64,000 nucleotides of DNA from Muribaculaceae bacterium (GTDB taxonomy: Bacteria; Bacteroidota; Bacteroidia; Bacteroidales; Muribaculaceae). The stretch lies in the NCBI GenBank assembly GCA_017557425.1, contig JAFYYU010000004.1, positions 62,001-126,000 of the forward strand, written 5' to 3'. Below, one piece after another: positions 24,839 to 35,066 of the stretch (position 1 is the stretch's first letter; every line of letters begins with the position of its first letter). The position numbers and the translations under genes were made by a program. Below the pieces are notes generated by a model, which saw only the letters and a program-made list of their open reading frames with translations, did not search any database and was not told where the DNA came from.

Positions 24839-25522
24839 TCAGTCCCAGATGGTTTTTAGCTTGGTGATGTACGCTGAGACGAGAAACAGCGTGTTGAGCT
24901 GCCCTTTCAGACGGAATCGATGGTGTGACACTTCCACGCCATAGTATTCCTCGATTTCTGCCTTCAGCTGCTTCAAATCGTCTTCAGTCATTCCTAAGTC
25001 ACGTGTAAGGTCGCTGTCAGGAGTGATAATGATACCTCTTTTATCTGCATCAATCAACAGGTTGCAATAATTCATGAGGTACGTCAGGATGTTCATTTGA
25101 ATCTCTTCCCGGTCTATCGTGGCCGACTCCTCGACAACAACAGCCGGTACATGGGGGCGTGGTACACCATACATTGTTGTGGGTGGGTATTGAGAAGGGC
25201 GTGGAGGTGGTGCACCATACTTTGCCGTCTGTTGCTGCGGCCGTGGAACTCCGTATCTGGTTGCCTGTTGAGACGGTGATTGGGGCGTGGGTCTACGCCT
25301 TTGACTCTTGTCCACCTGCTGCATGGCGTACAGTTCGTCAAAACTGTAAGCCTGGCCGTCGATGGCGACCGCTTCGGCAGCGGTGACTTCAGCATTGGGG
25401 CTATGAAGTGTCGCACCAGTGGCCGAGACGGCAATAAAGCCTGGCGTGAGCCCGGCAACGACCACCGCACCCACCGCGGTGAGTGCTTTTTTCCTCTTAT
25501 TATTTTTTCGGTTTTTCATCAT
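24839..25522 (-). CDS. Secreted YGxP-motif protein with acyl-carrier-like domain
   Basis: A 227-residue exported protein, last of four paralogues downstream of a radical SAM gene. Residues 1-36 are the shared signal-like segment (KKALTAVGAV...GLTPGF), 54-68 the shared IDGQAYSFDELYAMQ block. A Pro/Gln-rich linker carries three repeats: TRYGVPRP (88), AKYGAPPP (100) and TMYGVPRP (116). Residues 148-225 look like an acyl-carrier fold: PDSDLTRDLGMTEDDLKQLK then AEIEEYYGVEVSHHRF. At the position of the phosphopantetheine serine there is glutamate, so it should not carry that group. Function unknown; a substrate of the linked enzyme is plausible. Confidence 0.7.
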   Translation of the reverse strand: MMKNRKNNKRKKALTAVGAVVVAGLTPGFIAVSATGATLHSPNAEVTAAEAVAIDGQAYSFDELYAMQQVDKSQRRRPTPQSPSQQATRYGVPRPQQQTAKYGAPPPRPSQYPPTTMYGVPRPHVPAVVVEESATIDREEIQMNILTYLMNYCNLLIDADKRGIIITPDSDLTRDLGMTEDDLKQLKAEIEEYYGVEVSHHRFRLKGQLNTLFLVSAYITKLKTIWD

Positions 25523-25594
25523 GTTATTGTTCTTTCACAATATATGACCAGATTATCATGCTAGAGTTTAATGTTCCTCATTCTTTCGGTTTGG

Positions 25595-25845
25595 CCCCAC
25601 GCTAAGTCGCTAAGTTTTTACAATCGGCCTAACGGCCTGGAAATTAGGCACATTAGATTCAAAATAAAGTTTTGAGGTAAAAATTTAATTTATAAATATG
25701 TTTAATTTGGATATACTTGGCTACGTCTCAGCAAATCGAGCAAGCTCGTTTGCGTTCGACTTGCACAAGTTTTCTTGCGAGCCCTGCGATCGATCCCAAT
25801 AACTTTTCGCGCCTTCGCGGCTTTGCGTGAGGTGTAGAAGCAGAC
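25595..25845. repeat. Intergenic stretch of degenerate repeats
   Basis: This 325-base gap between two paralogues holds CCCCACGCTAAGTCGCTAAG (25595-25614), a segment around 25720-25780 containing the self-complementary CGAGCAAGCTCG, and CGCGCCTTCGCGGCTTTGCG (25807-25826). The two GCG-rich ends belong to a repeat type seen in other gaps of the window. No convincing gene is present. Confidence 0.5.
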
Positions 25846-25847
25846 AG

Positions 25848-26525
25848 TTATTCTTCTGGCAGCGTGAATGTCACGGGCAGCGTGTACCATACCGATACGG
25901 CCTTGCCGTTCTGGCGACCTGGGGTGAACTTGGGCAGTGACTTGACGACGCGCACGGCTTCCTTGTCAAGGTCCTTATCTACCGAGCGAAGCACTTTTAC
26001 TTCACCAATCTTGCCCTTCTTGTCAACAACGAACTGCACAACGACATGACCTTTTATTCTGTTCTTCAGGGCCTCAGCAGGATACTGGATATGGGCTTCA
26101 ATGTATTTCATCAGCGCAGCTTCACCACCAGGGAATTGGGGCATCTGCTCTACGCTCCTGTAGATGACGTCATCTTCCGAAACCTTGTCATTAGAGGAAA
26201 CAGGAGAAACACTCCTTCGTTGCACACCATATTTTGCTACAACAACTGGTGCACCATACAATGTCGCACTGCTTTCTTCAAGCACAATGTTAAGCTCAAT
26301 CGTATCCATCTTTACACTGTCTGGATGCTGCATGGCGTACAGCTCATCAAAACTGTAAGCTAGGCCGTCGATGGCGACCACCTCGGCAGCGGTGGTTCCT
26401 GCACTGGGACTCTGAATGGACGACCCGGCGGCCGAGGCTGCGATGAAGCCCGGCGTGAGCCCGGCAGCTATTACAGCCCCCGCCGCAGCGAGCGCTTTTT
26501 TCCCTTTATTTCTCTTCTTCATCAT
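25848..26525 (-). CDS. Secreted YGxP-motif protein with TonB C-terminal domain
   Basis: A 225-residue exported protein with the family N-terminus (signal-like segment to about 34; AIDGLAYSFDELYAMQHPD at 51-69). A linker follows with TLYGAP (88) and AKYGVQ (97). Residues 130-222 are a TonB C-terminal domain: QFPGGEAALMKYIEAHIQYP, GHVVVQFVVDKKGKIGEV, AVRVVKSLPKFTPGRQNGKA and VSVWYTLPVTFTL. There is no proline-rich span or membrane anchor for energy transduction, so it is probably not a classic TonB. The upstream spacer is duplicated from the neighbouring paralogue. Confidence 0.75.
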   Translation of the reverse strand: MMKKRNKGKKALAAAGAVIAAGLTPGFIAASAAGSSIQSPSAGTTAAEVVAIDGLAYSFDELYAMQHPDSVKMDTIELNIVLEESSATLYGAPVVVAKYGVQRRSVSPVSSNDKVSEDDVIYRSVEQMPQFPGGEAALMKYIEAHIQYPAEALKNRIKGHVVVQFVVDKKGKIGEVKVLRSVDKDLDKEAVRVVKSLPKFTPGRQNGKAVSVWYTLPVTFTLPEE

Positions 26526-26580
26526 GTTATTGTTTCCCTTAAATATTTGACACTTCCATCGCGTTAGAGTTTAATGCTCT

Positions 26581-27285
26581 TTAATTATCATTCTCTTTTG
26601 GCAGCGTGAATGTTACAGGAAGCATGTGCCAGGATGCCACGGCCTTACCGCCAAGGCGAGCCGGGACAAAGTTGGGCAGCGATTTGACAACTCTAACGGC
26701 CTCGTCAGCAAGTTCCTTATCCACCGAGTGAATCACCCTGACCGTGCCTATTTCTCCCGTACTCTTCACAACGAACTTGACGACGATGCGTCCTTGAACA
26801 CGATTCAAGAGGGCATTGGCAGGATACTGGATTTGAGAATCGATGTATTTCATCAGTTCAGCATCACCGCCAGGGAAGGATGGCGCTTGATTAACGCTAC
26901 GATAGATAGTGTCACCTTTTATAACCTCATAATCAGCTCCAATAGGGGAAAAAACACTCCCTCGCGGCACACCATACTTTGTAGTACCATATGCTATTAC
27001 AACTGGCGCACCATATAATGTTGCGTTGGAAGGCTCAAGTACAATGTTGAGTTCAATCGTATCCGTCGCTGCACTGTCTGGATTCTGCATGGCATACAAT
27101 TCATCAAAACTGTAAGCCTGGCCATCGATGGCGACCACTTCGGCAGCGGTGGCTCCTGTATTGGGGCCCTGAATGGACGAACCAGCTGCAGAGGCAGCGA
27201 TGAAGCCCGGCGTAAGCCCGGCAGCGACCACGGCACCCACCGCAGTGAGTGCTTTTTTCCCTTTATTGTTATTTTTCTTCTTCAT
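26581..27285 (-). CDS. Secreted YGxP-motif protein with TonB C-terminal domain
   Basis: A 234-residue paralogue of the neighbouring gene. Signal-like segment 1-36, shared AIDGQAYSFDELYAMQ block at 52-67, then TLYGAP (89), AYGTT (98) and KYGVPRG (103), and a TonB C-terminal domain at about 139-230 (GRIVVKFVVKSTGEIGTVRV, AVRVVKSLPNFVPARLGGKA). The leader sequences and flanking spacers show it arose by tandem duplication. As with its paralogues, the partner and location beyond export are unknown. Confidence 0.75.
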   Translation of the reverse strand: MKKKNNNKGKKALTAVGAVVAAGLTPGFIAASAAGSSIQGPNTGATAAEVVAIDGQAYSFDELYAMQNPDSAATDTIELNIVLEPSNATLYGAPVVIAYGTTKYGVPRGSVFSPIGADYEVIKGDTIYRSVNQAPSFPGGDAELMKYIDSQIQYPANALLNRVQGRIVVKFVVKSTGEIGTVRVIHSVDKELADEAVRVVKSLPNFVPARLGGKAVASWHMLPVTFTLPKENDN

Positions 27286-27347
27286 CTTCTTGTTTCAATA
27301 TAATGTTAAACTTAGCGCCTTAGTGTGGGGTTGAATTCTGTGAATAG

Positions 27348-28385
27348 TTACTCTTCCGGGAGCTTGAAAATCACTTGCTCCGTTCGCCACACCGACACGG
27401 CCTTGCCTTTATGGCGACCAGGGGTAGGGATAAAGGGTAGCGTCTTGACAAGGCGAACTGCCTCCTCGTCAAGTTCCTTATCCACCGAGCGAACCACCCT
27501 GACGTTGCTGATTTTCCCGGTTTTCTCTATAACATAATTGACGAAGACACATCCTTGAACTCTATTCTTGATGGCATTGGCGGGATACTGGATATGAGAT
27601 TCGATGTATTCCTTGACAGCTTTCTCACCAATTGGGAATCTTGGCATTCGTTCAACGTTATAGTAAACAGTGTCTCCCTCCAGAATATCATAGTCATAAG
27701 ATAAGGGACGCGAATAGACAGGACCATACCTTGTTACATTTGGATATGATGTAACGATGACTTCAGGCAGGCTGCCATCCATATTCACGATATCCGGGTG
27801 CTGCTTGGCGTACAGTTCGTCAAAACTATAAGTCTTGCCGTCGATGGTAACTGCGTTGGCTGCGGTGGTTTTGCGCTTACCTCTTATCGAGAATGTCACA
27901 GGCAGCGTGTACCACACCGACACGGCCTGACCGTTATGACGCCCAGGGATAAACTTGGGCAGCTCTTTGCAGGCGCGAACGACCTCACGGTCAAGATAAT
28001 AATCCGCCGAATGGATTACCGTTGCGTTACTGACCTTACCGGTCTCGTCAACAATGAAGCGCACAACGACACGACCCTGAACTTCATCCTCTGCGGCCAG
28101 GTATGGATAGAGGATGTGGGACTTGAAGTACTTCATCAGCGCCGCCTCGCCGCCAGGGAATTGGGGCATCTGCTCCACGCAGCTGTAAATGACGCTTTCC
28201 TCAACCTTTTCATCATTGCTGTTAATATCATTAGGGCACAGTCCGCCATATCCTGCATTGGAGTTCTGAATGGACGAACCGGCGGCCGAAGCCGCAATGA
28301 AGCCCGGCGTGAGTCCGGCAGCAACCACAGCCCCCACCGCAGTCAATGCTTTCTTCCTGCTATTCTTATTTCTCTTCTTCATCAC
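27348..28385 (-). CDS. Secreted protein with two TonB C-terminal domains and YGxP-like motifs
   Basis: A 345-residue member of the family with two TonB C-terminal domains (about 73-168 and 247-342). The first domain follows the signal-like segment and an AGYGGLC site; the second is preceded by the TIDGKTYSFDELYAKQHPD block (180-198) and a TRYGPVYSRP motif (218). This suggests fusion of two tandem copies in which the second lost its signal peptide. It is the first of the four paralogues after the radical SAM gene. Confidence 0.75.
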   Translation of the reverse strand: MMKKRNKNSRKKALTAVGAVVAAGLTPGFIAASAAGSSIQNSNAGYGGLCPNDINSNDEKVEESVIYSCVEQMPQFPGGEAALMKYFKSHILYPYLAAEDEVQGRVVVRFIVDETGKVSNATVIHSADYYLDREVVRACKELPKFIPGRHNGQAVSVWYTLPVTFSIRGKRKTTAANAVTIDGKTYSFDELYAKQHPDIVNMDGSLPEVIVTSYPNVTRYGPVYSRPLSYDYDILEGDTVYYNVERMPRFPIGEKAVKEYIESHIQYPANAIKNRVQGCVFVNYVIEKTGKISNVRVVRSVDKELDEEAVRLVKTLPFIPTPGRHKGKAVSVWRTEQVIFKLPEE

Positions 28386-28415
28386 AGAATTCTCATTTAA
28401 GTGTCAGAACCTCTC

Positions 28416-28455
28416 TAATCACTAATCCCTAATCCCTAATTTTCAAGTTTCTAAT
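28416..28455. repeat. CTAATCC-type heptamer repeat
   Basis: Four to five imperfect TAATCACTAATCCC-type units lie in the 65-base gap between the radical SAM gene and the first paralogue. Related arrays occur at 31252, 33189 and 49651. Confidence 0.6.
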
Positions 28456-29536
28456 CAGAAACTTGAATCTTCACATTCTTCAACTGATTGTAGTGGCAGG
28501 TCATCATCATGTCGCCGTTCCCGTCGCGCAGGTGCATGCCGTCGCCCTGACAATAGCGGAACATCTCGCAATCCTGGCAAGCGCCACGTCTCATCCACTC
28601 GCGGTTACGGAACTTCTCAAAGCGGTTCTCCCACACGTCCCAGAAGCTGTCACGGTAGATGTTGCCCTGGCTGTAATCACTGCGGATGCTCAGGCAGCCC
28701 GAAATGTCGCCATTGGCCCGAACACTTGCCACGCTGAGGCCGGCCTGGCAGTAGAAGAAATAATCGCGGATCAGCCCTTCGTAGGCGCCCATAAAACCGT
28801 CACAGGCATAGCTGAGGTTGATTTTCCCCTCGCAACGCGTGGTGACGATGAAGTTCAGCAGGTCGCGGAACTGTTCATCAGTGAGTAGCAGGCTTTTGTC
28901 GTTGGCGGCACGCCCCATCGGGTCGATGGTGAAGCAGCGCCAACGGGGCACGCCGGCCTCGATGAGCAGTTTCTTCACTTCATTCAGTCGGGGCAGGTTA
29001 CGGCTGTTTACACAGGTAATCACATCCCACGTGAGGTCGGGGATAGTCTGCACGGCTTCGATGGCCCGCATGGCGGCATCAAAGCTTTTTGTGGAATTCC
29101 TGAGCCAATTGTGCTCCTCGCGCATGCCGTCCACGTCAAGGGCGAGAGAGTTGATGCCGGCTTGAGCCAGCTCGCGGGCGACGGAACGGTCCAGAATCAG
29201 ACCATTGGTGACAAATCCCCACATGAAGCCCCGTTCTCGTATCGCCCTGCCGCAGTCCATCAGGTCGGGACGCACCAGCGGCTCACCGCCCACGGTGTCA
29301 ATCATCACCAGTGAGGGGTCGCAGTGTGCCGCCACCTCGTCCAAGACAGGCGCGAAGTCCTCAAAGGGCATATCGGGTACCGCTGACTCCTTGAGGCAGT
29401 CACTGCCGCAGTGTCGGCAGGCCATGTTACAGCGCAAGGTGCATTCCCAGAACAGTTCCCGCAAGGGGTGCTCCCGTCTGAGGCGCTCAGCATAGTCGTG
29501 AGTCAGCTCCAGTTGTCGTAGTTGATGCTCATTCAT
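28451..29536 (-). CDS. Radical SAM/SPASM-type enzyme, putative protein/peptide maturase
   Basis: A 361-residue enzyme from the ATG at 29536; the longer frame is rejected because a TATCTTTG promoter box lies at 29564-29557. The 4Fe-4S SAM motif is C36-NMA-C40-RH-C43. VGGEPLVRPD is the family's second motif. The C-terminal 100 residues are SPASM-like, with cysteines in FFYCQAGLS, ISGCLSI, ACQDCEMFRYC and MTCHYN. It resembles the radical SAM partner of the 'rSAM/lipoprotein' systems of Bacteroidales (TIGR04133-like, from memory). Four paralogous secreted proteins follow on the same strand and are the obvious candidate substrates. Confidence 0.85.
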   Translation of the reverse strand: MNEHQLRQLELTHDYAERLRREHPLRELFWECTLRCNMACRHCGSDCLKESAVPDMPFEDFAPVLDEVAAHCDPSLVMIDTVGGEPLVRPDLMDCGRAIRERGFMWGFVTNGLILDRSVARELAQAGINSLALDVDGMREEHNWLRNSTKSFDAAMRAIEAVQTIPDLTWDVITCVNSRNLPRLNEVKKLLIEAGVPRWRCFTIDPMGRAANDKSLLLTDEQFRDLLNFIVTTRCEGKINLSYACDGFMGAYEGLIRDYFFYCQAGLSVASVRANGDISGCLSIRSDYSQGNIYRDSFWDVWENRFEKFRNREWMRRGACQDCEMFRYCQGDGMHLRDGNGDMMMTCHYNQLKNVKIQVSD

Positions 29537-31354: not shown

Positions 31355-31381
31355 ATTCTGGCTGCCACGCAGCTAGAATTT
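31355..31381. repeat. Inverted repeat at the M15 peptidase stop
   Basis: AATTCTGGCTGC (31355-31366) and GCAGCTAGAATT (31370-31381) form a 12-bp stem with one mismatch and a 3-base loop, overlapping the stop codon of the peptidase gene. There is no T-tract. Confidence 0.45.
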
Positions 31382-31771
31382 CATATACAATCGTCTATTA
31401 CGCCCGCGGCGGTGACTCACGTGGATCCAGCGGCACCCTTTCTCGTCGATACATTGGTCAACAGGCAGGTCAAGCCGCTTGATCAAGGCTAGCAGGCGTC
31501 GGTTGCCGCTACGCGAGCCCACGGTGATGTCGGCGGCCTCGCCATATTGGTGCTGACTGCTGGGCGTGCCGCCCACCGCCTTGTTCAACACGGGGCAGCG
31601 GTAGCCGCTGTTCACCCTGATGGGGCCGCCCCAGGCATCGCGCAGCGGGTCCAGCACATCGTCAACCAGGGCGGTGAGCGCCCTGACGGCACTGGCGGGC
31701 GGCGTGTTGTCGATACCCAGGTGACGTGCCGTGGCCGAGCGTGTCAGTTCCGCGATGGTGAAGTGTCTCAT
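31373..31771 (-). CDS. M15-type D-Ala-D-Ala peptidase of phage type
   Basis: A 132-residue single-domain zinc peptidase of the M15A type used by phages and some bacteria to cut peptidoglycan cross-bridges. Zinc and catalytic motifs: VNSGYRCPVLNKAVGG, SSQHQYGEAADIT (His, Asp) and the C-terminal RWIHVSHRRGRNRR (His). There is no signal peptide. Its ATG overlaps the capsid gene stop (ATGA), so it is translationally tied to the cassette. Confidence 0.85.
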   Translation of the reverse strand: MRHFTIAELTRSATARHLGIDNTPPASAVRALTALVDDVLDPLRDAWGGPIRVNSGYRCPVLNKAVGGTPSSQHQYGEAADITVGSRSGNRRLLALIKRLDLPVDQCIDEKGCRWIHVSHRRGRNRRLYMKF

Positions 31772-33192
31772 AACGTCAGCACGCGCATGTGGGCCTTGGG
31801 GTAACGCAGCACCAGACAGGAGGCCTCGGTCATCACCAGCGCATCCACGTTGCGCACGCCGCTCTTCTTGAGGTTGAGCTGCTCGGTGCTGAAGGGGATG
31901 TGGGTGTACTTCTGGATATACTCGGGGTCGATGACGATGCCGTATTCGCTCATGCCCACCTCGTCAAACACCTCGCTCATCAGCAGGTACAGGCAGCCGA
32001 ACTTGCTGCGCAGCTCGGTGAAGTCGATGCCCCACTTGCTCACGTGCTGACCGGCGGTGATGACGCGGGTGTAGTCCAGCTGGCTCAGGCGGCTGATCAG
32101 GCCGCTGCCGCCCACCAGGATCTTGCGCTTGCTGCCCGAGTTGCCGGTAAAGGCCTCACGCATCAGTCTGATGAGGCTTTGCTCGTTGAAGTCCTCGGCC
32201 GACTCCAGGTAGTGCTCCTTGCCTGCCTGGTTCCAGATGCCGCCTGTGAAATAGACGTACTCCTTCTTATTGTTGTCCCACAGCTTGCGTGCCACGCCAA
32301 AGAGGAACGACTTCTCCATGCCCAGGCGCATGTCATAGACGGCGGCCTCTTCCTGGTCGGTCATGGTCCAGCCCACCTCTTTGTTGGCCAGGCGCTGCAG
32401 CGTTGACTGCTCGACCTGCATCTTGAAGATCTGGCACAGGTTGCGGTTCTTGGTCGGCAGGGACTCGAACTGCGGCGACTGCACATCCAGCTCACTGGCG
32501 GCGCGTCCCATGCGCACGAGGGTGACGCCGCTGCTGATGTCGGGTATGCAGTTGGGCACGCCGTTCATGAGGGGGCCGTTCACTGCCATGACGGTAACAC
32601 CGTTAGTGTCGCGTCCCATGACGTAGAGCATCAGGTCCTGTACGCTCTCGCTGCCGTCGGGGTTGTAACCTGCCGTGTTCTGCACCAGAATGGTATCGGT
32701 GGGGTCAAAGATGTCGTTGTTGCTCGTCTTGATGACCGTGGTGGGCGAGGACCCGTCGCCGCTCTGCTGGCTCACGGCGGAGACTGACTCGCTCAGCCTG
32801 GCAGTGGTGGGCTTGGTGTCCACGCTGTAGTAGTCAACGACCATGCTGCCGCTGTGCTTGCTGCCGGCAAAGCGTGAAATCTGGTCGATGGGTGTGGACA
32901 TCGGGCGGATCTTTACGATTTGCTGGTCAATCTCGTTGAGCAGCAGGTCGGGACTGCCTTCGTGGGTCAGGTCGGTGGTAAGGGGGCCGTCAACGACGTG
33001 TCGTCCTTCCTCGACACCGGCAACGAGCATACCCACGGCGAGCGTGGCGCTCGACCCGTCACCACCCATGCACGAGGCCAGAATGGCAATCAGGATCATG
33101 GTGATGACAAAAATAACTAACTTCTTGTGGTTGCGCATCCAGCGCATAGCTTTGATAAAATTCATGGTCTTCATGGTTTTAAATAAATTCAC
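31768..33192 (-). CDS. SU10-type (DUF5309) phage major capsid protein with N-terminal hydrophobic segment
   Basis: 474 residues. From about residue 60 on it resembles the SU10-like/DUF5309 HK97-fold capsid: NEIDQQIVKIRPMSTPIDQI, SRFAGSKHSGSMVVDYYSVD, ISSGVTLVRMGRAASELDV, EVGWTMTDQEEAAVYDMRLG, GGIWNQAGKEHYL and GSKRKILVGGSGLISRLSQL. Unusually, the first 41 residues form a basic-then-hydrophobic segment with a lipobox-like ILASC (residues 37-41), so it may be membrane-anchored. A start at Met42 would give a plain capsid protein. It lies downstream of a portal and a scaffold-like gene. Confidence 0.75.
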   Translation of the reverse strand: MNLFKTMKTMNFIKAMRWMRNHKKLVIFVITMILIAILASCMGGDGSSATLAVGMLVAGVEEGRHVVDGPLTTDLTHEGSPDLLLNEIDQQIVKIRPMSTPIDQISRFAGSKHSGSMVVDYYSVDTKPTTARLSESVSAVSQQSGDGSSPTTVIKTSNNDIFDPTDTILVQNTAGYNPDGSESVQDLMLYVMGRDTNGVTVMAVNGPLMNGVPNCIPDISSGVTLVRMGRAASELDVQSPQFESLPTKNRNLCQIFKMQVEQSTLQRLANKEVGWTMTDQEEAAVYDMRLGMEKSFLFGVARKLWDNNKKEYVYFTGGIWNQAGKEHYLESAEDFNEQSLIRLMREAFTGNSGSKRKILVGGSGLISRLSQLDYTRVITAGQHVSKWGIDFTELRSKFGCLYLLMSEVFDEVGMSEYGIVIDPEYIQKYTHIPFSTEQLNLKKSGVRNVDALVMTEASCLVLRYPKAHMRVLTL

Positions 33193-33218
33193 TAATCACT
33201 AATCACTAACCTCTAATT
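33189..33218. repeat. CACTAAT heptamer array inside the capsid cassette
   Basis: CACTAATCACTAATCACTAA occupies the spacer between the capsid and scaffold-like genes. The same repeat type fills gaps between chromosomal housekeeping genes, suggesting long residence of this cassette in the chromosome. Confidence 0.65.
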
Positions 33219-33224
33219 AAATAA

Positions 33225-33611
33225 TCACTCCCAGATGCTGCGGCGGCAGTAGCGGGGAAATACGGGTGTAGCCGTTGCGGGAGTTTCCTCCTCGTCTTGG
33301 GGCTCAGGGTGCAGGACGGCCTCGATTTTCTCGTTGCGGCCGCGCAGGTAACCTGCCGCATCGGCATTCTGCACATCCTCGTCGTGGCTGATGCCGCGGG
33401 CGAGCGTTGCCAGCAAGTCGTCGCTGATGCCTTCGCTCGGAATGCCTGCGGCGAGCTCCGAGAGATGCTGTGCGGTGTCGTCGTTCAGCCCCATCGCCCT
33501 GGCGCGGTCGACAAGGGTGGGGGAGGTGGACGGCTCCTGGGCTTCGACAGGTTCTTCACTGTGGCGAAAGGGCGGTGGCGTCACTTTCTCAATTTTTTCA
33601 TCTGTGTTCAT
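33225..33611 (-). CDS. Acidic scaffold-like protein of the capsid cassette
   Basis: 128 residues, acidic and Pro/Glu-rich (KVTPPPFRHSEEPVEAQEPS) with a helical centre (DDTAQHLSELAAGIPSEGIS) and a basic, aromatic end (RYCRRSIWE). No family is recognised. Its position between portal and major capsid genes, its size and its charge fit a scaffolding protein or a head-completion factor. Function is inferred only from context. Confidence 0.5.
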   Translation of the reverse strand: MNTDEKIEKVTPPPFRHSEEPVEAQEPSTSPTLVDRARAMGLNDDTAQHLSELAAGIPSEGISDDLLATLARGISHDEDVQNADAAGYLRGRNEKIEAVLHPEPQDEEETPATATPVFPRYCRRSIWE

Positions 33612-33644
33612 GGCTTTTACTGTGTATAAAGGTGAATAAAACGG

Positions 33645-35066
33645 TTATAGTTTGCCGGTTAAAGCGTTGATTTTGTGATTTCGCTGCCGGCGGAAGGCCT
33701 CGAACGTGTCATACACGTCGCTCAGCGCGATGTTGGCGTTCTCGCTCTGCTGCTCATAGACCCGCGCGCTGTTCACCGTGGGCGACTTGCCTTGCAGGGC
33801 TCCGCTCACGCCGCTGATGTCCTCAAACAGCTTCATCTGCAGCTCAATCATCTGGAACGCGTTGGAGTTGCCCCCGTTGGCGTTGATCTGCTCGGGCTTG
33901 GCCTCGCTGTAGCGCGGGTTATAGGGTAGCAGGCCGTTGGCGCTCGACCAGCAGCGGCGCGCGTCCTCCCACGTCCAGCCTTCGGGCAGCGCCGTCTCGG
34001 GGAACAGGAGCACCCCTTTGGCACTGCAGCGCATCACTTGGTCCAGCAGCGATATCATGCGGTTGACGTGCTTCTGCGTGTCGATGATGTCCTCGACCAC
34101 GGCATGCACCTCACCATCGGTGAGCGGGTACAGCTTGATGACAAACGGATGGCTGCCGTGGGGCCAGGGCGAGTCATACTCGGTCAGCAGATCTCCCATC
34201 GGGCTGAACCAGCGGCAGTGCCAAACCGTGGCGATGTCCCAGCGCGTGGTCACATCGGGGCGACGGTTCAGTCGGTGGCTGGCGCTGGCCGGCTCCACGG
34301 TGAGCGTGCCCTCACGGCGGTTGTGGCACACGACCACCTCGCGGCTTTCGAGCGTCCATACCTCGATGGCGCGGCACTTACCGTCGCGGGCGTTCCAGAA
34401 GTCGCTGCCCAGTTGCGAGTCGGCTCCCAGGCGCGTCGTGAAATCGGTCTGACGGTTTTCGGCGTCATCTGTGTACAGTCGCCGCACCCATGCCGCCTTG
34501 CGCTGGTTGCCGCCAGCCACGCGGCGCAGCAGCTGGGCGATGTTCAGGTCATGCAGTTGGCCGATGAGTTCGCAGTCCCACGCACGGGTGTCGTGCATCG
34601 TGCCCGCAAACCATTTGTTCACGTTCACGTTATCGACCCTTACCTGCTCGTCCTCGCCAGGCTCATGCCAGTTTTCCACGCGCTGGATGCAGCAGCCCGA
34701 AATCAGGAACTCCTCCAGCGCACGGCAGTCGAGCTCGTCCAGCTCATTGCCTTCTCGGATATCCCTCATCGGGGAGTCGCTCGTGTCATCGCCCTGCTTG
34801 ATATACTGACTGCGAAAGCGCCCGATAATGGTCTTGACCAGTTGCCTGATCATGTTGTTGGTAATGCTCTCGCAGCCCTGTTCGTGCAGGTGCTCTCCTT
34901 CGGTCATCATGCGGCCCTGGTGATCCCTGACCAGGTCGCCCCACTGGTCGCCGTAGGTGAACCTTTTGTTCCTCAGCCGTGCCTGCCGCAGCCCCGCCGC
35001 GTTCATCCACGCCTTGTAGGCAGCGTGCAGCACCCTTGTGTGTCCTTCATTGTTCATGTTCTTCAT
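33645..35066 (-). CDS. Phage-type portal protein
   Basis: 473 residues, matching phage portal proteins of the P22-like kind: RLRNKRFTYGDQWGDLVRDH, ESITNNMIRQLVKTIIGRFR, the Trp/Arg-rich beta core (VWHCRWFSPMGDLLTEYDSP, PFVIKLYPLTDGEVHAVVED) and the long helical end (DISGVSGALQGKSPTVNSAR, EAFRRQRNHKINALTGKL). It is shorter than most portals (500-750). Portals form the ring through which DNA passes. It is the first gene of a four-gene cassette with no terminase, tail or integrase genes nearby. Confidence 0.75.
   Translation of the reverse strand: MKNMNNEGHTRVLHAAYKAWMNAAGLRQARLRNKRFTYGDQWGDLVRDHQGRMMTEGEHLHEQGCESITNNMIRQLVKTIIGRFRSQYIKQGDDTSDSPMRDIREGNELDELDCRALEEFLISGCCIQRVENWHEPGEDEQVRVDNVNVNKWFAGTMHDTRAWDCELIGQLHDLNIAQLLRRVAGGNQRKAAWVRRLYTDDAENRQTDFTTRLGADSQLGSDFWNARDGKCRAIEVWTLESREVVVCHNRREGTLTVEPASASHRLNRRPDVTTRWDIATVWHCRWFSPMGDLLTEYDSPWPHGSHPFVIKLYPLTDGEVHAVVEDIIDTQKHVNRMISLLDQVMRCSAKGVLLFPETALPEGWTWEDARRCWSSANGLLPYNPRYSEAKPEQINANGGNSNAFQMIELQMKLFEDISGVSGALQGKSPTVNSARVYEQQSENANIALSDVYDTFEAFRRQRNHKINALTGKL

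Follow-up and report, generated by a model that had tools for sequence, protein, structure and literature searches.

A locus of a Muribaculaceae bacterium, lying within a stretch of 64,000 nucleotides that was analyzed as a whole (the window), raises the question of what a radical SAM (rSAM)/SPASM enzyme does to the four proteins encoded beside it. One such gene and four paralogues occupy positions 24839-29536 of the minus strand, the paralogues following the enzyme gene, and all five were found where the preliminary description had placed them. The genes and the motifs within them are as follows.

28451..29536, minus strand, radical SAM/SPASM enzyme of the TIGR04133 family, 361 aa (NCBIfam; Pfam Radical_SAM and SPASM)
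27348..28385, minus strand, paralogue 1: signal-like start and TonB_C, then IDG block, RYGPV and TonB_C (translation, Pfam, alignment)
28245-28250, minus strand, second YG of paralogue 1, in GYGG
27801..27845, minus strand, IDGxxYSFDELYAxQ block of paralogue 1
27723..27728, minus strand, YG codons of RYGPV in paralogue 1
26581..27285, minus strand, paralogue 2: signal-like start, IDG block, linker with three YG sites, TonB_C
27085..27129, minus strand, IDGxxYSFDELYAxQ block of paralogue 2
26971..27015, minus strand, three YG sites of paralogue 2: LYGAP, AYGTT and KYGVP
25848..26525, minus strand, paralogue 3: signal-like start, IDG block, linker with two YG sites, TonB_C
26328..26372, minus strand, IDGxxYSFDELYAxQ block of paralogue 3
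26226..26258, minus strand, two YG sites of paralogue 3: LYGAP and KYGVQ
24839..25522, minus strand, paralogue 4: signal-like start, IDG block, Pro/Gln-rich linker with three YG sites, acyl-carrier-like domain
25319..25363, minus strand, IDGxxYSFDELYAxQ block of paralogue 4
25166..25255, minus strand, three linker YG sites of paralogue 4: RYGVP, KYGAP and MYGVP

The intergenic gaps along the locus measure 68, 62, 55 and 325 bases. Scoring against TIGR04133, which NCBIfam lists as a hypothetical equivalog, had been suggested as a check, and the enzyme reaches 499.7 bits against this model (cut-off 425). Its nearest named matches within the family come from Phocaeicola (52.9% identity) and Parabacteroides (50.9%), and among solved structures it has nine distant matches, the best being cytosylglucuronate decarboxylase. 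A literature query with the family name returned nothing, and elsewhere nothing on TIGR04133 chemistry was found in titles and abstract beginnings; Scott 2022 (Chem), credited with 27 characterized and 939 predicted splicease systems (PMC10533398), may cover the family. A promoter box had been assigned to the enzyme gene, and TATCTTTG does stand directly upstream of it, but the two-box pattern TTTG-N17-23-TAnnTTTG, which has 12 matches in the window, has none upstream of this gene, and the promoter is unproven.

The signal-like start and the IDGxxYSFDELYAxQ block are common to the four paralogues, as had been described, except that in paralogue 1 the block lies with RYGPV in the second half and only GYGG is found near the start. 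This protein appears to be two paralogues fused head to tail, and its true start is likely an ATG one codon inside the GTG. The sites of YGxP type, of which one to three had been listed for each protein, are present, although the list lacked GYGG of paralogue 1 and AYGTT of paralogue 2. Pfam agrees with the earlier account of the C-terminal modules, placing two TonB C-terminal domains in paralogue 1, one in paralogue 2 and one in paralogue 3, and an acyl-carrier-like domain at the end of paralogue 4 (DUF1493, 23.7 bits, cut-off 21). Acyl-carrier domains usually carry a serine in the motif DSL, and this residue, judged by eye, appears replaced here. An extra YYGVE sits inside the carrier-like domain and was left out of the site count. 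The paralogues are apparently exported; no cysteine, as a lipobox would need, occurs within the first 40 residues of any of the four, and related partners in L035 and L038 do have one.

The rSAM/lipoprotein system (TIGR04133 with TIGR04134) resembles this locus in its clear TIGR04133 enzyme and in an adjacent partner with a YG motif behind an export-type start, export being judged from sequence only; the earlier statement that its lipoproteins bear YGxP near their start proved right. It differs in that the partners in the window lie downstream, are not TIGR04134 proteins, lack the lipobox cysteine and carry TonB_C or carrier-like modules. TIGR04134, against which scoring of the paralogues had been suggested, has no match among the four and none in the genome, and the paralogues are therefore another class of partner.

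The pairing of the enzyme with YG proteins is supported by comparison. In a census of 111 TIGR04133 loci, drawn up apart from the window's own locus, 107 of the 276 ORFs close to a TIGR04133 gene contain YGxP, and of 414 others from these loci 6 do (Fisher p 2e-41, a nominal value, as the loci are related). ORFs were listed mechanically, the near set comprising those on the same strand, 60-450 aa long and at most 1.5 kb from the TIGR04133 gene; same-strand ORFs at 1.5-2.5 kb entered neither set. A YGxP partner is present in 92 of the 111 loci by count, and a plausible YG partner in 104 by eye. The expected conservation of YGxP in homologous loci is borne out by this enrichment, but the constant core of the motif is YG, proline being frequent and dispensable. 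YG motifs are conserved beside TIGR04133 elsewhere in the order, and a Treponema plasmid shows them as well; six of seven further stretches with TIGR04134-like proteins contain a YG protein, which is absent in the weak match of G122.

A profile of the paralogue start, built from linked copies of 15 of the 16 matching genomes, matched 31 times across 16 of 61 genomes, each time near a TIGR04133 gene on the same contig; because the profile was built from linked copies, linked matches were expected, and the informative part is the absence of unlinked ones. No copy away from a TIGR04133 gene was found in the 61 genomes and no match in 295 other genomes of a phylum sample, in keeping with the proposed tie of these proteins to a linked rSAM gene. 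Partners of the window type are confined to this genus in the samples searched, and all 25 partners examined from it carry a YG somewhere in residues 45-160, even though the linker varies more than any other part. Among pairs of 10 TonB-type proteins its median identity is 0.43, whereas the start block reaches 0.74 and TonB_C 0.66. Tat export of folded cargo was considered as an explanation and rejected, since TatC, present in 57 of the 61 genomes, separates nothing.

Among 295 sampled genomes of the order, at least 60 have TIGR04133 above cut-off, and TIGR04134 is above cut-off in 39 genomes, 37 of them among the listed TIGR04133 genomes. The TIGR04133 genome counts are lower bounds because G281, which has TIGR04134 and stands outside the list, possesses a linked enzyme gene (479 bits with a three-sequence TIGR04133 model); in G263, also with TIGR04134 above cut-off, no enzyme was seen. 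The central proposal of the preliminary description, that the enzyme modifies the YG segment of exported-type proteins, is supported, and we infer that action of some kind on this segment is very probable.

The kinship of the enzyme and the motif itself bear on the nature of this action. In our trees, none of which included AhbD, TIGR04133 groups with TIGR03913, with TIGR04103, which we take to be the family of the splicease PlpX, and with their relatives (99/98 and 97/91). A G[YF]xGxYE-like stretch is found in 24 of 31 TIGR04133 rows, 15 of 16 TIGR04103 rows and all four further rows of the group, and the 24 other SPASM rows all lack it. By profile score, TIGR04103 does not stand out as the nearest family: the window enzyme reaches 124.1 bits against it (cut-off 725) and slightly more, 127.5 bits, against the AhbD profile; two other TIGR04133 enzymes score higher with TIGR04053 than with TIGR04103 (106.7 vs 91.1 and 128.7 vs 107.1), and for a third TIGR04103 leads with 142.6. 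The kinship of TIGR04133 with the spliceases is supported but not decisively so. The GDL peptide system (TIGR03913 with DUF1843) has its enzyme in the same tree group and a YG near the start in two of three Azospirillum peptides, but its peptides are small and without a signal-like start, and its enzyme is longer (518 aa).

PlpX excises tyramine from Xaa-Tyr-Gly (PMC11002830), with a loss of C8H9NO at the site, for which 135.0757 Da is given (PMC10533398). The precursor of a splicease-family locus in Nostoc ends in SIALYGLPPELF, and in 76 of 80 cyanobacterial loci of this family a small ORF lies upstream on the same strand and contains YG within its second half, compared with 9, 12 and 10 of 80 in controls on the other strand or downstream. 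Spliceotide systems (PlpX/PlpY) and the locus studied here share the XYG target, often xYGxP, an rSAM/SPASM enzyme and the G[YF]xGxYE stretch; in the best trees the enzymes are neighbors, but a join of TIGR04133 with MftC was not rejected. Our reading goes further and suggests that the YG motif here may equal the XYG site of PlpX-type spliceases; against this, the residue before Tyr is more varied at TIGR04133 partners than in spliceases.

We propose that the locus may constitute a one-enzyme protein-modification system. The TIGR04133 enzyme would recognize, in the cytoplasm and ahead of export, the shared start segment formed by the signal-like stretch and TAAxVVAIDGxxYSFDELYA, and would act at the Tyr-Gly sites of the variable linker behind it. 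Of the reactions considered, one like that of PlpX is the likeliest: X-Tyr-Gly would lose tyramine, the two ends of the chain would be joined again with an alpha-keto-beta-amino residue (ketoamide) at the junction, and the modified proteins would then be exported with a reactive group beside the TonB C-terminal or acyl-carrier-like module. To splicing as the reaction we assign a probability of roughly 0.45.

The spliceotide systems also differ from the locus: there is no Nif11 leader here, and the targets are whole exported-type proteins. Two further differences, in PlpY and in the cysteine pattern, speak against splicing and lend weight to another reading, in which the enzyme acts on Tyr-Gly and keeps the chain length, linking Tyr to a neighbor, oxidizing it or inverting it. 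No PlpY-like small ORF was found among the 7487 ORFs of the 111 TIGR04133 loci, and 59 of the 80 cyanobacterial loci have one. The cysteine pattern is unlike that of PlpX, the last cysteine of the SPASM motif CX2CX5CX3C being absent in 109 of 109 readable TIGR04133 enzymes, although 107 of 108 have C[ED]G[YFW] (A allowed for G), whose cysteine adjoins the G[YF]xGxYE stretch. SPASM enzymes, moreover, perform many chemistries. Against such an outcome, splicing or decarboxylation at Tyr is what the closest characterized enzymes carry out (PMC8326336), and across 201 sites no residue other than Y, G and the frequent P keeps a fixed place, so that no fixed partner for a Tyr link is seen; chemistry of this kind strikes us as possible but rather doubtful.

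An oxidative bond breakage at Tyr as in MftC, which would trim the protein or leave a reactive end at the site, is unlikely. Mycofactocin MftC (TIGR03962) is likewise an rSAM/SPASM enzyme acting at Tyr, and a review likens its reaction to tyramine excision as similar rearrangements (PMC8326336). Kinship with MftC was not rejected either: the tree joining it to TIGR04133 had p-AU 0.66 in one test, scoring better than the free search, and 0.072 in the dataset of the 97/91 tree, and in the former dataset joins with TIGR04053, NirJ/TIGR04347 and other Bacteroidales enzymes were also not rejected (p 0.228-0.342). Mycofactocin, however, has a small precursor (MftA) and a chaperone (MftB), and the target of MftC is Val-Tyr (PMC8326336). 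That pair is C-terminal, whereas here the sites lie within the chain and have Gly after them. At the G[YF]xGxYE stretch MftC reads SFFHLSAYGE, a loose likeness, and neither of the two MftC rows fits the pattern.

It is very improbable that there is no modification, the linkage reflecting common descent or co-regulation and the substrate of the enzyme lying elsewhere. The linkage of YG partners persists across differing C-terminal domains, and unlinked lipoproteins in four genomes with the enzyme elsewhere retain YG too. A three-residue cyclophane (triceptide-like), with the Tyr ring joined to the C-beta of the residue two places on, often results where rSAM enzymes act on peptides with aromatic motifs but is hardly credible here, as that residue is Pro in 35 and Gly, which offers no C-beta, in 9 of the 201 sites.

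Returning to splicing, we put forward, tentatively and with less assurance than for the reaction itself, that TIGR04133 enzymes may be spliceases that work without PlpY and edit whole exported proteins in their backbone, throughout Bacteroidales and in one spirochaete or more. In this genus the signal-like start may have become a portable tag by which TonB-domain and carrier-domain proteins bearing ketoamides leave the cytoplasm. A concrete reaction, testable by mass, would concern many Bacteroidales, at least 60 of the 295 genomes having the enzyme. Ketoamides make spliceotides protease inhibitors (PMC11117315). If splicing is true, backbone editing would no longer be limited to small peptides but would include whole exported proteins, and bacterial surfaces or the periplasm would bear ketoamides.

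The preliminary description of a radical SAM/SPASM gene followed by four same-strand paralogues that share a common start, an IDG block and YG sites was borne out by translations and profile searches, the source genome being a 2.58 Mb draft that is 85% complete and, judged by its gene families, probably belongs to Bacteroidales.

24839-29536, minus strand: radical SAM/SPASM gene, then four paralogous genes (translations)

The enzyme scores 499.7 bits against TIGR04133 (cut-off 425), and none of the four paralogues matched TIGR04134, the classic lipoprotein partner family to which they had been likened. The TIGR04133 rSAM/lipoprotein system is a known kind, and the partner class in the window is a variant of it. 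The paralogues consist of a lysine-rich and then alanine/valine/glycine-rich start, the IDGxxYSFDELYAxQ block, a variable linker with the YG sites, and a C-terminal module, which is TonB_C in paralogues 1-3 (two copies in paralogue 1) and an acyl-carrier-like domain in paralogue 4. Paralogue 1 (27348-28385) appears to be two paralogues fused into one, its first half keeping the signal-like start and TonB_C and lacking the IDG block. The intergenic gaps from the enzyme to paralogue 4 are 68, 62, 55 and 325 bases; the last (25523-25847) is unlike the short gaps before the other paralogues, and paralogue 4 may therefore be transcribed separately. The pattern TTTG-N17-23-TAnnTTTG, presumably the Bacteroidota promoter type, has 12 matches in the whole window against 0.69 expected. 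Beside the locus lies a phage remnant or prophage edge (31373-35066, minus strand) with genes for an endolysin (phrog_894), head-protein-like products (phrog_26635, phrog_1328) and a portal (phrog_156).

Linkage was examined in 111 TIGR04133 loci other than the window (35 from a first relatives search, three named plasmids and 73 from an order-wide sample; a small gene fragment in genome G008 was left out), which are related to each other and not independent draws. YGxP occurs in 107 of the 276 near ORFs (same strand, 60-450 aa, at most 1.5 kb from the enzyme) vs 6 of the 414 other ORFs of the same loci, and this is the clean comparison for enrichment. In a census of 201 YG sites from 124 candidate partners, proline stands at Tyr+3 in 142/201 vs 14/401 in background ORFs, a contrast inflated because most candidates were picked for YGxP. 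By strict count, 92/111 loci have a YGxP ORF within 2.5 kb of the enzyme; a slightly wider pattern leaves 18 without and 93 with. Inspection by eye raised this to a YG partner in 104/111 loci: four YGxP proteins missed by the ORF filter (L056, L068, L165, L223) and eight partners without the proline (L035, L043, L044, L047, L053, L195, L196, L216) were added, and L201, where the match sits in a sigma-factor-like ORF, was taken off. The original counts for L038 and L180 were chance matches in other proteins, yet each has a YG partner. No YG partner was found on inspection in seven loci (L054, L063, L175, L178, L182, L201, L224); the enzyme gene is at a contig end in L063 and L175. Outside Bacteroidota, plasmid pTS1 of the spirochaete Treponema saccharophilum (L068) carries a complete pair, an SCYGMPENYY lipoprotein and the enzyme.

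The proposed conservation of YGxP stands for Tyr-Gly; the proline is frequent without being constant, and is often missing in the window's genus (e.g., TKYGAI, TRYGAW). As YG is kept there, lying between residues 45 and 160 in all 25 partners examined, the motif is best given as X-Y-G-x-(P). Among 10 TonB-type proteins, median pairwise identity is 0.74 for the signal-like start and IDG block, 0.66 for TonB_C and 0.43 for the linker; being the most conserved region where the linker is the least, the start and IDG block would fit a recognition segment.

A start-segment model (A4) gave 31 matches in 16 of 61 genomes, two of them within one fused gene, and all sharing a contig with a TIGR04133 gene and lying within ~3.5 kb of it. 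Since linked copies in 15 of the 16 matching genomes had served to build the model, only the lack of unlinked matches, of which there were none among the 61 genomes, is informative; it upholds the linkage. In a phylum sample of 296 genomes, only the window's own genome was matched. Classic lipoprotein partners do occur unlinked, with YG kept and the enzyme elsewhere in the genome (G165, G172, G069, G183), the pattern that action of the enzyme in trans would give; in G263 a YG lipoprotein is present and no TIGR04133 enzyme was found. The central idea, a modification system acting on the YGxP segment, holds up under comparison with related loci.

TIGR04103, which we take to be the PlpX family, groups with TIGR04133, TIGR03913 and relatives in a first tree (75 rows, support 99/98) and in a second with a more careful alignment (39 rows, 97/91), both without AhbD rows. 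A pattern scored as G[YFL]x[GS]x[YFK][ED] (in shorthand, G[YF]xGxYE) is found in 24/31 TIGR04133, 15/16 TIGR04103 and 4/4 further members of the group, as opposed to 0/24 other SPASM rows; its strict form occurs in 88/108 TIGR04133 enzymes of a wider set. Beside enzymes of the same group, on plasmids of Azospirillum lipoferum 4B (L243) and Aureibacter tunicatorum (L071), lie DUF1843 peptides, 3/6 with YG near the start (MLYGGA, KPYGVA, QPYGAG) and the rest with YM or YA. PlpX, for which IPR026482 is given (PMC10533398), is described as cutting tyramine out of Xaa-Tyr-Gly and leaving a ketoamide (PMC11002830), with MYG and LYG as natural sites and tags such as PIRPLYGLPI in use (PMC10533398); this target resembles the YG motif of TIGR04133 partners. 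TIGR04103 enzymes from cyanobacteria were taken as the best 80 of 416 relatives found, and in 76/80 of their loci a small ORF lying upstream on the same strand contains YG in its second half, vs 9/80 on the other strand and 12/80 and 10/80 downstream on either strand; the Tyr mostly follows L, M or I, and the Gly is mostly followed by V, I, A or L. A link of TIGR04133 to splicing is a specific, testable proposal, with a probability of about 0.45.

Several results stand against this proposal. Constraining TIGR04133 with MftC, the mycofactocin enzyme, gave a higher likelihood in a reduced tree (p-AU 0.661), in which joins with TIGR04053 (p 0.325), NirJ/TIGR04347 (p 0.228) and other Bacteroidales enzymes (p 0.342) were also not rejected; the second tree gave less support to the MftC join, which was not rejected at 0.05 there either (p 0.072). 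Profile scores did not single out TIGR04103 for TIGR04133 enzymes. A PlpY-like small ORF, usual in the cyanobacterial loci (59/80), was not found among the 7487 ORFs of the TIGR04133 loci. All 109 readable TIGR04133 enzymes (of 111) are without the final cysteine of CX2CX5CX3C, and another cysteine lies beside G[YF]xGxYE in 107/108, so that, judged from sequence, their auxiliary clusters are probably built differently. PlpX and MftC are both described as acting on a tyrosine and breaking bonds there (PMC8326336); with either as neighbour, tyrosine as the target is firmer than splicing as the reaction. Simple oxidation or inversion of this tyrosine, or another link, is a possible if less probable outcome. 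Cysteine precedes Tyr in 28/201 sites, where it is likely the lipobox residue of lipoproteins (e.g., ACYGTP), and is absent from the sites of the window proteins, which rules out a thioether as a general outcome. A three-residue cyclophane, joining Tyr to the C-beta two places on, is very improbable, as the C-beta it requires at Tyr+2 meets Gly in 9/201 and Pro in 35/201 sites.

The C-terminal modules vary, from TonB_C to the carrier-like domain of paralogue 4 and carrier domains in relatives. Three YG partners have a signal-like start and a phosphopantetheine-type carrier domain at the end, scoring above the Pfam cut-off:

L034, 6399-6974: YG partner with carrier domain
L035, 2131-2733: YG partner with carrier domain
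L049, 1131-1778: YG partner with carrier domain

An export-like start is unusual for a carrier protein. In one branch of the genus (L034, L038, L045), conserved exported-looking proteins of ~450 and ~315 aa follow the enzyme and partner; in L035 only the ~450-aa protein is visible before the contig end, and both are absent at the window locus. As spliceotides are described as inhibiting proteases (PMC11117315), one idea for the role of the YG partners, if a ketoamide is formed, would be that of a tethered protease inhibitor.
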